64,000 nt of DNA from Allonocardiopsis opalescens (lineage in GTDB: Bacteria; Actinomycetota; Actinomycetes; Streptosporangiales; Streptosporangiaceae). Positions 45,552 through 47,664 of the stretch are shown here, one piece after another. The stretch lies in contig NZ_PVZC01000005.1 in assembly GCF_003002095.1 (NCBI RefSeq), positions 186,001-250,000 of the forward strand. The letters run 5' to 3'. Numbering within the stretch: the first letter of the stretch is position 1; each line of letters starts with the position of its first letter. Below the pieces are notes generated by a model. That model was not told where the DNA came from and did no database searches. It was given only the letters and a program-made list of their open reading frames with translations. The position numbers were made by a program, and so were the translations under genes.

Positions 45552-47438
45552 TCAGGTGACGGGCGCCGTCCAGGCGGCCCGCCAGGTCTCCGGTCCGACC
45601 ACCCCGTCGACCGCGAGCCCCTTCTCCGCCTGGAACGCGCGGCAGACCCGCTCGGAATCGGGCCCGTACCGCCCGTCGGCGACGATGGTCCAACCCCGGT
45701 CGCGCATCCGCCGCTGCCAGGTGCGGGCCGCGTCGGACTCGCGCACCGGCGGCTGCGACAGGTACACACCGGGCCAGGCGGGGATGCCGTCACCGCCCGG
45801 CTCACCCGGGTCCTCCCCGCCGCCCACCGAGCCGTCCCCCTCGCCTCGGAAGCCGCCGTTCTCGACCAGCGCGTACAGCACGTCGCCCGGGCACTCGGTG
45901 GCGATGAAGTCGCGGTGCCCGCGCACCGCCCCCGCCACCCCGCGGTCCATCAGATAGGCCCGCAGGTCGCGCACCCCCCGCACCTGCTCGTCCGTCGGCC
46001 GCTCGCTGCCGCCGAGCATCAGCGTGACGGAGTACCAGTTCGCGTTCCCCGAGGTCGTCCCCTGCGCCGCCTGGTACCGGTTGAGTCCGCGGCCGGTGAA
46101 GACCTCGCCGTGGCGGCAGGCGGAGAAGCTGTTGCCGGTGAAGTAGACCGTCCCCTTGCGCCGGGCCAGCCAAGTGGCGTTCGGGGTGGTCGGGCACCAG
46201 ATGTGCCCGGCGTAGGTCCGCGTACCGATGGAGAACGCCGACCTCGGGGCGGCGGCCGCCGGCTTCGGAGCGAAGTAGGACTTGCGCCTCAGCTCCACCT
46301 TCCACATGTCGTAGGCGGTCGACGCGGTGGGCGGCCTGCGGCGCAGTGATGTCGCGTAGCCGGCGACCGTGGCGGCGAACTGGAACGCCTCCGCGGCCGA
46401 CCGGTCCTTCCGGCTGAGCGCCCGGGAGTCGTTCGTGCGGTGGTTGTGCCCGCCGCCCAGCAGTGAGACCGCGATGAACAGTTCGAGCTGCGCCTTCGTG
46501 AGGGACAACAGGAACGCATGGCTCGGCACCCGGCCCGGCGCGTGTTCCAGCAGGACCCGGCCGGCGTCGACGGACAGGTGGAACTCGGCCGAGTGGCGGT
46601 TGTGCGCCTCACGCCACCGCGGCGCGCCGTCCGTGCCGGAACCCGTACGGGGGAAGCGGTCGGATGGCGGGCCGAAGAGGACGTGCAGGGCGGCCCGGAT
46701 GCGGTCGGTGTCGGCCGGGTTCCGCACGAGGGGCTGGTAGATCGTCACCCCTGTGCTCGCCTCGCGGCTCCCGCTCTGCGGCTCGATGTGCCCCTCGGTC
46801 CAGAACCAGGCCACCAGTTCGACCAGCGCGTCCGACCACTTCTGCTCGGTCGGGAGATCGGCGCGGGGGGCGGCCAGCGGCACCCTGTCCCGGTACGTGA
46901 GGGTCCCGGTGGTGGCCCATCGGCGTTCCCTGCCCTGGACGCTGAGCGGTGCGGCTCCGGTGGCCGCCCCGGTGCCGTCCGCCTCGTGCCGGCGTTCGGT
47001 TCCGGTCTTCCGGTAGAAGCGCTCCACCGGCCAGCGGTGGTTCGGGGTCGTCAGGGAGGAGTGGCCGGAGCCCTCCATCAGGACCAGTTCGCGCGGCATC
47101 GCGGGGAAGACGTTCACCGCCAGCAGGGGCTGCCACTCCGACATGCCCGTCTCGTGGTCGAGGGTGAGGACGGGGTCCCCCGGCTCGATCTGCCGGAACG
47201 TACGCCACCCGGCGGCGGTGAGGATCTCGGTCTCCTCGTCGACGCAGTACCCCACGTCCGCCCACCCGTTGCCGTTGATGTGGTCGGAGCGGATGCGCTT
47301 CCAGTAGGCGACGCACTCGTCGTGGCCGTCGAGGTCGGTGGCGGGTCCGTTGTAGTGGACGACGAGGCCGGAGCGCGGGTTCGCGTAGTCGGCGCCGGAC
47401 GGGCCCCAGCCGAAGTAGGAACGGGGTCGAAGGATCAC
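45552..47438 (-). CDS. N-acetylmuramoyl-L-alanine amidase (PGRP) with intein and peptidoglycan-binding domain
   Basis: 628-codon gene. Removing residues 65-436 (intein) joins ADVGY to SFSACRHGEVF and gives a normal PGRP-type zinc amidase. Ligands: His in VVHYNG (residue 28), His in GHRDF and Cys in ATECPGD. A peptidoglycan-binding domain lies at the C-terminus (WQRRMRDRGW ... DGVVGPETWRAAW). GTG start with AAAGGGG upstream; the in-frame ATG 60 nt earlier gives an unlikely leader. No signal peptide, so export may be non-classical, or the gene may be an endolysin relic. It cleaves the glycan-peptide amide bond once spliced. Confidence 0.9.
   Translation of the reverse strand: MILRPRSYFGWGPSGADYANPRSGLVVHYNGPATDLDGHDECVAYWKRIRSDHINGNGWADVGYCVDEETEILTAAGWRTFRQIEPGDPVLTLDHETGMSEWQPLLAVNVFPAMPRELVLMEGSGHSSLTTPNHRWPVERFYRKTGTERRHEADGTGAATGAAPLSVQGRERRWATTGTLTYRDRVPLAAPRADLPTEQKWSDALVELVAWFWTEGHIEPQSGSREASTGVTIYQPLVRNPADTDRIRAALHVLFGPPSDRFPRTGSGTDGAPRWREAHNRHSAEFHLSVDAGRVLLEHAPGRVPSHAFLLSLTKAQLELFIAVSLLGGGHNHRTNDSRALSRKDRSAAEAFQFAATVAGYATSLRRRPPTASTAYDMWKVELRRKSYFAPKPAAAAPRSAFSIGTRTYAGHIWCPTTPNATWLARRKGTVYFTGNSFSACRHGEVFTGRGLNRYQAAQGTTSGNANWYSVTLMLGGSERPTDEQVRGVRDLRAYLMDRGVAGAVRGHRDFIATECPGDVLYALVENGGFRGEGDGSVGGGEDPGEPGGDGIPAWPGVYLSQPPVRESDAARTWQRRMRDRGWTIVADGRYGPDSERVCRAFQAEKGLAVDGVVGPETWRAAWTAPVT
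46131..47246 (-). mobile_element. Intein (372 residues) inserted in amidase
   Basis: Starts at Cys (block A CVDEETEILTAAGW), block B has GSGHSSLTTPNHRWPV, block F/G has WCPTTPNATWLARR and GTVYFTGN, followed by Ser as the +1 residue. The penultimate residue is Gly, not His. An internal endonuclease-like region has LVELVAWFWTEGH and LFIAVSLLGGGHNH, resembling LAGLIDADG motifs. The block F/G style resembles inteins in phage terminases. The second LAGLIDADG motif has Gly in place of the catalytic Asp, suggesting weak or lost homing. Confidence 0.9.
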
Positions 47439-47664
47439 CGCAAGCCCCTTTCTGTGGCGGGAGCCGCTGGCGCGCGGGCTCCCGCTGGCATCGTGCACAG
47501 AGGGTGTCGGCTTCGACCATGGGCGTGACGGACCGTTGTGAAACCGTAGCCGTCGCGCTCCGCGCGTCGCCTTGACAACGATGTCAGGCCGGTCGTGCCC
47601 TGAAGGAGGAAGGGCGCGTCCGTCCTGTCCCGTTTCTCACGGCGCCGGCGGTTACGCTGTCCCG

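Follow-up and report, generated by a model that had tools for sequence, protein, structure and literature searches.

The window analysed here, a 64,000-nucleotide stretch of the Allonocardiopsis opalescens genome, carries on its minus strand a frame that is open over 648 codons (45552-47498). The precursor gene in this frame (45552-47438, minus strand), which encodes an endolysin-type amidase together with an intein, probably starts at the GTG at 47438, because AAAGGGG lies six bases upstream and the paralogue L035 starts at the same point; a precursor of ~628 aa would result. Comparison with the paralogues and with PGRPs delimited the N-extein (47247-47438, minus strand), which contains the first part of the PGRP/Amidase_2 domain and ends in ...GWADVGY. 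The C-extein (45555-46130, minus strand), delimited by profile matches, contains Ser+1, the remaining amidase and a PG_binding_1 domain (45576-45731, minus strand; Pfam, E 5e-11). The host protein matches the phrog_1493 endolysins (PHROGs profile, E 1.9e-47) and is assigned by profile to PGRP/Amidase_2, and its exteins also match sequences of PGRP crystal structures; Amidase_2 scores 24.0 bits on the interrupted protein, under the 26-bit cut-off of Pfam. No signal peptide was seen in the precursor sequence, so the precursor would fold, and could splice, in the cytoplasm. The gene is surrounded by ordinary chromosomal genes (a BCCT transporter, DUF6328, PSP1 and a hydrolase), none of which turned up at the related loci L035-L045 and L056-L147 (mostly ~5 kb on each side). 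Since these neighbours are not recognised phage genes, residence of the window gene in a prophage was rejected.

The intein, delimited by translation, homologue alignment and predicted fold, comprises 372 aa from C1 to N372 (46131-47246, minus strand; frame residues 85-456) and lies in a single open frame throughout, with VGY before it and SFSACRHG after it. Block A (47208-47246, minus strand) contains Cys1, which is present in 48/48 amidase-site rows and 46/46 viral rows. Homologue alignment placed block B, HSSLTTPNHRWPVE, at 47022-47063, block F, GHIWCPTTPNATWLAR, at 46161-46208 and block G, TVYFTGN, at 46131-46151, all on the minus strand. Block B contains SSLTTPNHRW with Thr B:7, His B:10, Arg B:11 and Trp B:12, and block F contains IWCPTT with Cys351 (F:4). 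Block G, which carries Thr370 (G:5), Gly371 (G:6) and Asn372 (G:7) and is followed directly by Ser, ends in TGN, the usual penultimate His being missing. The element possesses blocks A, B, F and G, the terminal Asn and the +1 Ser of an intein, and it is an exact in-frame insertion into a protein whose intact homologues lack it. Curated models miss the intein, because Pfam cut-offs are not reached and there is no NCBIfam or PHROG match. In the search with Pfam, Hint and intein profiles suggested in the first-pass annotation, no Pfam family other than Hint_2 and PT-HINT touched the intein, and neither reached its threshold (Hint_2 scored 15.6-16.6 bits, with 28.4 required); the intein alone matched nothing in NCBIfam or PHROGs, and PF14890 had no match at the intein position in the own genome at an E threshold of 0.001.

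In the same genome, three paralogues (L035, L036 and L037) have an uninterrupted site, with the junction intact in protein and DNA. Around the junction, 31/36 bases are identical between the window and L035 and L036, and the window protein groups with these two on the extein tree (support 100/96). L035 and L036 adjoin tape-measure and other tail genes, indicating that they are prophage endolysins. Two PGRP crystal-structure sequences also run uninterrupted across the insertion site (DIGYNFLVG) in the two alignments inspected. The Tyr preceding the intein is presumably the catalytic Tyr of T7-lysozyme-type amidases. The genome holds one copy only of this intein family, and its other inteins were therefore rejected as the source. 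Among the latter, the DnaB helicase L153 (G000:C3:134114-136363) contains a class 3 intein of 318 aa with Ala1, the triplet and a THN end, which is not among the PF14890 matches, and the RecA L046 (G000:C1:1499047-1500312) contains a class 1 intein whose middle part is long. In addition, two HINT domains occur in L047 and L048 (G000:C3), proteins resembling polymorphic toxins.

Beyond this genome, the intein occupies the same amidase site at 47 named-genome loci and on one viral contig (L103), where the inteined amidase adjoins an ORF of a holin family. The loci belong to Nocardiopsis, Nonomuraea, Herbidospora, Thermobifida, Streptomonospora, Actinomadura, Microbispora and related genera, and one of the 47 records is labelled Glycomyces. 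We take most of these genera to belong to the Streptosporangiales (the order and Nocardiopsis alone were confirmed). The rows overlap in part: of the first eight proteins, seven reappear among the 47 named loci, a single genome supplies both L085 and L101, and the viral set contains several near-copies. L085 and L101, on one contig of Nocardiopsis metallicus, are two inteined amidases with inteins of 371 and 280 residues. The record labelled Glycomyces fuscus TRM 49117 (L061) may be mislabelled or its region transferred, as the amidase and its neighbours fit the Nocardiopsis locus; at that locus, the amidase of L044/L093 and of L203 is directly preceded by another amidase-like ORF, partial and in tandem. 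In L036, L041, L075, L079 and L103, a short ORF of one family (79-143 aa) adjoins the amidase; that of L041 and L103 is phrog_10742, for which PHROGs gives the function as unknown, and a role as lysis partner is possible.

All 48 amidase-site homologues (the 47 named loci plus L103) carry Cys1, Thr B:7, Trp B:12, Cys F:4, Thr G:5, Gly G:6 and Asn G:7; the residue after the intein is Ser in 37 and Thr in 11 of them, and Arg at B:11 is constant. Because the genome and viral scans were seeded with peptides that include T-G-N (GTVYFTGN or TVYFTGN, together with P..E.KW.D), the constancy of these three residues is to some extent built in; the search patterns contained neither Cys1 nor Trp B:12 nor Cys F:4. 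Residues 135-325 of the intein form a LAGLIDADG homing endonuclease domain (46272-46844, minus strand), whose predicted model is matched by I-DmoI chains with Z 14.3-14.7. The acid of the first motif, ELVAWFWTEG (46791-46820, minus strand), is kept as E151 (E in 23 and D in 2 of 49 rows), and that of the second motif, LELFIAVSLLGGGH (46446-46487, minus strand), is lost (G265; D in 17 and E in 1 of 49 rows). The predicted model has the fold of a LAGLIDADG endonuclease but the sequence does not have an acid in each motif, and the window endonuclease has probably ceased to home. The loss of the second acid fits the empty prophage copies of the own genome.

The evolutionary rates of the two parts differ. 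Amidase-site inteins range from 258 to 373 aa (49 rows), and mean pairwise identity is 0.71 and 0.77 for the two splicing parts, 0.48 for the endonuclease and 0.52-0.55 for the exteins. In 13/13 disjoint close pairs, dN/dS was lower in the splicing part than in the endonuclease (medians 0.16 for the splicing part, 0.38 for the endonuclease and 0.23 for the exteins), and it was lower than in the exteins in 9/13 pairs only. Over 1156 pairs, where synonymous sites are mostly near saturation, the medians were 0.70 for the exteins, 0.28 for the splicing part and 0.55 for the endonuclease. In two Herbidospora pairs the endonuclease is still constrained (dN/dS 0.09 and 0.17). These data indicate that the splicing part is under selection for retention. 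Moreover, the copies make up a natural series: full-length inteins that retain both acids, such as that of L056 (Streptomonospora nanhaiensis), stand at one end, increasingly decayed ones follow, and copies of 258 residues stand at the other end, while no member has lost the splicing residues.

An AlphaFold model of the intein (60 family members) had a pLDDT of 92.5 and predicts an intein fold of the HINT type. The whole model matched endonuclease-containing inteins (TliVMA, Z 24.3, 302 residues aligned). For the splicing part, the top match was the split class 3 intein of AceL NrdHF, with Z 18.2 and an rmsd of 1.9 over 144 residues, and further class 1 and class 3 inteins reached Z of at most 16. 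Since class 1 and class 3 structures both match, the fold does not decide the class. The model of the precursor had a mean pLDDT of 73.9 with low confidence in the amidase part, and is thus silent on whether the unspliced enzyme is inactive.

The insertion is exact, it is sporadic at one locus, and its splicing part is under selection. Judged from sequence, it is highly probable that a chromosomal N-acetylmuramoyl-L-alanine amidase of the endolysin type harbours a cis-splicing intein whose LAGLIDADG endonuclease has decayed. The intein would be placed directly after the conserved Tyr of the DIGY strand, and the precursor would fold in the cytoplasm. A Cys would then attack the N-terminal peptide bond and the N-extein would be transferred to Ser+1, after which Asn372 would cyclise and VGY would be ligated to SFSACRHG, yielding an intact amidase. 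We infer that splicing occurs, with Cys1 as the likely first nucleophile, Cys351, Thr370 and Trp72 as probable active-site helpers, and Arg71 probably in place of the missing penultimate His; most likely the intein is active in splicing and inactive in homing. The first-pass annotation had proposed that an intein splits a PGRP-type amidase, and the exact empty sites in paralogues and orthologues, the conserved splicing residues and the predicted fold bear this out. Its description of 372 residues that begin with Cys and end in Asn followed by Ser was also confirmed, with the key residues present in 48/48 copies; its reading of blocks A, B, F and G stands, but overlooked the class 3 triplet and the endonuclease domain.

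It is unlikely that this genuine intein has lost splicing in this genome and has left a dead orphan amidase beside intact prophage endolysins elsewhere. The window copy may be dispensable, as the genome has three paralogues free of the intein, of which two lie next to phage tail genes, and its endonuclease already lacks one acid; however, all splicing residues and the open frame are intact, and purifying selection acts on the splicing parts of the homologues. It is very improbable that the insertion is a HINT autoprocessing domain, Hedgehog-like or bacterial-intein-like, which would cleave the amidase instead of splicing it. The sub-threshold Hint_2 and PT-HINT matches and the further HINT proteins of the genome would suit such a domain, but it does not account for a terminal Asn followed by a +1 Ser or Thr in 48/48 copies, a full C-extein, exact empty orthologues and an endonuclease domain. 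A splicing intein is therefore the preferred reading of the insertion.

Many of the inteined amidases sit at fixed chromosomal loci, beside methylmalonyl-CoA mutase genes in Nonomuraea and relatives and beside a YjeF-family gene and rhodanese in Nocardiopsis. Among 18 loci from these two genera, which were picked rather than drawn at random so that 5/18 is no frequency, all 18 retain these neighbours, 5 with the intein and 13 without it. The methylmalonyl-CoA mutase locus (genus of G003) has the intein in 3 cases and lacks it in 8, and the YjeF/rhodanese locus (genus of G046) has it in 2 and lacks it in 5; four of the 18 repeat genomes already in the data set, the extein rows of L208, L209, L210 and L219 being identical to those of L098, L096, L077 and L083. 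By counts made by eye from hit ranges, and among the matches listed, an inteined copy is present in 17/54 genomes of the G003 genus and 28/40 of the G046 genus, with none in 37/54 and 12/40, respectively. On the extein tree (89 rows, 54 with and 35 without the intein, some of them duplicates; L015, L020, L029 and L033 were left out as the regular expression did not find the site), 18 changes are needed to account for where the intein is present, and a minimum of 11 is imposed by well-supported branches. Over 49 amidase-site rows, the distances between splicing domains correlate with those between exteins (Spearman 0.675, with 0/1000 permutations as high). The correlation and the forced state changes together indicate that the intein is mostly inherited with the gene, with repeated loss or gain. 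The long retention with the gene that this rho of 0.675 reflects would also suit a structural insertion domain of the amidase that does not splice, but many syntenic orthologues exactly lack the segment, at least 11 state changes are forced by the tree and the same element occurs in unrelated phage proteins, so that this reading has a negligible probability. A chance open frame was rejected on the exact empty paralogue sites and the uninterrupted PGRP sequences.

The comparison with intein-free amidases of related strains, which the first-pass annotation had recommended, thus supported its proposal, with 13/18 same-locus orthologues and three paralogues free of the intein; the contrary case that it had named, in which all homologues carry the segment without splicing residues, does not hold, as many lack the segment. 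It had also called a cell-wall hydrolase an unusual host. In keeping with this, we found no inteined endolysin or cell-wall amidase in the literature searched, most subscription papers lying outside its reach, and the accessible part of one paper describes 224 mycobacteriophage endolysins as all free of inteins (PMC3314691); the site itself, however, is recurrent, with 47 named loci and one viral contig. Its further claim that the splice state controls lytic activity found no support, as no inteined copy is present in 37/54 and 12/40 genomes among the listed matches, and regulation of lysis by splicing is a guess. The host is nevertheless of interest as an endolysin-type cell-wall hydrolase at fixed chromosomal loci in several actinomycete genera, with the intein coming and going.

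Relatives of the intein are found in phages. The family occurs in portal and terminase genes of Gordonia phages, in gp135 of Mycobacterium phage Pinkcreek and in the portal gene of GX15bay, and also in a gut-phage polymerase and many proteins of viral contigs. The inteins of Gordonia phages Hail2Pitt, Woes, Belphegor, GMA3, GordDuk1 and GordTnk2 (portal/terminase) and of Pinkcreek gp135 have 36-42% identity to the window intein over all 372 residues, and in Hail2Pitt, GMA3, Pinkcreek and Belphegor, where the junctions were inspected, Cys1 and the B, F and G motifs of the window intein recur; in contrast to the window intein, these phage inteins sit in other host proteins and at other sites. 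In the 22/46 viral rows in which a simple pattern picked up the second LAGLIDADG motif, its acid is Asp, whereas the window copy has no acid there. Among 50,697 phage records, 27 match the intein, none of them in a gene annotated as lysin or amidase, and no record covers 80% of the precursor. The amidases of Thermobifida phages P318 and P1312 belong, like the phrog_1493 endolysins, to the same protein family as the window host, but their matches skip the intein, and the window gene is not beside recognised phage genes. In the splicing-domain tree (120 columns with four motif columns removed, 108 rows of 119 after near-copies were dropped, L140, L143, L144, L145 and L146 left out), viral and amidase copies lie on opposite sides of a branch (98/90), class 1 and class 3 rows aside. 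Two changes are required for the amidase group, since long branches place the class 1 and class 3 rows within it; the tree is compatible with one single entry into the amidase site but does not demonstrate it. These data indicate that a phage-borne intein family is now resident in one amidase site of Streptosporangiales-type genera.

Further elements came to light in these searches. The intein of the Mycobacterium phage Willsammy methyltransferase (L054), present as 100%-identical copies in several phages, has Cys1, Cys F:4 and TGN without Trp B:12, which is the residue set of the amidase family minus one. Phage DP SC_2_H4_2017 from human faeces (L151) has a DNA polymerase I intein with Cys1, HRW, WC and TGN motifs and well-formed LAGLIDADG motifs. 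Streptomyces plasmids (L148 and L149) encode free-standing intein relatives without Cys1 or terminal Asn, two in tandem in L148, which look like dead or repurposed relics.

The residues of the family combine features of two intein classes. As in class 1, Cys1 is present in 94/94 rows (48 amidase-site and 46 viral, some near-copies; the partial L140, L145 and L146 were left out) and Thr B:7 of TxxH in 93/94, but the Asp F:4 and penultimate His that are usual, though not obligatory, in class 1 are absent, the positions being Cys F:4 and Gly G:6. As in class 3, the triplet of Trp B:12, Cys F:4 and Thr G:5 is present in 48/48 amidase-site rows, with a spacing from F:4 to the Asn of 21, as in 16/16 DnaB-i1 class 3 references. 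The 46 viral rows have Cys1 in 46, Trp B:12 in 44 (not in L143 and L147), Cys F:4 in 43 and Thr G:5 in 46. Three viral rows lack a Cys exactly 21 before the end, L134 and L143 having WC one residue further from the end and L144 none there. The last residue of L134 is Gln, and B:7 of L050 is Ser. The mycobacteriophage Catera Gp206 intein is said to combine the triplet with Ser1 and, if this is right, would offer one precedent, with Ser, for a first-residue nucleophile beside the triplet.

Class 3 inteins are described as lacking a first-residue nucleophile in the accessible parts of three papers (PMC3196547, PMC5050341, PMC7891396) and as merely not requiring one in those of a fourth (PMC5222942). 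As Cys1 is present in all rows, the family is not filed as class 3 under the stricter wording. According to the available text of the respective sources, the Trp-Cys-Thr triplet is found in class 3 only (PMC7664689) and the Thr of TxxH is generally missing in class 3 inteins (PMC6195587). Going by its available text, the collection of 1701 class 3 inteins in PMC7891396 was restricted to sequences that do not start with Cys, so the amidase-site family would be left out. The missing penultimate His is also not without parallel: in the portions at hand, a phage RDF intein with penultimate Gly is reported to splice completely, a change of Gly to His slowing splicing (PMC5050341), and AceL NrdHF, with penultimate Gly and B:11 Arg, is reported to splice using this Arg in place of the penultimate His, a change of Gly to His impairing all activity (PMC7891396).

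We consider it conceivable, though doubtful, that the phage-derived family is a living hybrid of classes 1 and 3 in which Cys1 and the Trp-Cys-Thr triplet are both functional. The acyl group might start at either Cys, or might pass from Cys1 to Cys351 and on to Ser+1. The constancy of Cys1 in every row makes a working Cys1 the simpler guess; Cys F:4 hardly drifts either, which suggests that both Cys may matter. The window intein contains no Cys other than these two candidate nucleophiles, at positions 1 and 351. In the splicing-domain tree, class 1, class 3 and the amidase/phage family form separate groups with no order among them, and in profile searches no solved class 3 structure matched the intein significantly. 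A sister relationship to class 3 was rejected on these two results, and the hybrid reading is accordingly drawn from residues and spacing, not from descent. If true, it would represent a progenitor such as has been postulated for class 3, in which a phage intein subsequently loses its first residue, and would mean that the triplet arose before Cys1 was lost. Such an origin, by first-residue loss from a phage class 1 intein, is proposed in the accessible part of PMC3196547, and an alternative origin from a protease-like ancestor in that of PMC7664689. A family with Cys1 and the triplet in 94 rows, some of them near-copies, makes this question testable by point mutants.

AceL NrdHF (6zgq) shares Cys F:4, Thr G:5, Gly G:6 and Arg B:11 with the window intein and, as far as the available text of PMC7891396 goes, also has no His at the block F and G positions. 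In contrast, AceL NrdHF has Glu at position 1, Met at B:12 and Ser at B:7 and is split, and its sequence similarity to the window intein is not significant (E ~0.2). The actinobacterial class 3 DnaB intein 1 (16/16, one from the own genome) has Trp B:12, Cys F:4, Thr G:5 and a spacing of 21 as in the window, but it carries Ala1, DxxH and a penultimate His (THN end) and forms a group of its own in the tree. Seven class 1 DnaB inteins from six genomes share Cys1 and TxxH with the window intein, whereas they have Asp F:4, a spacing of 18 (7/7), Trp B:12 in 0/7 and a His-Asn end.
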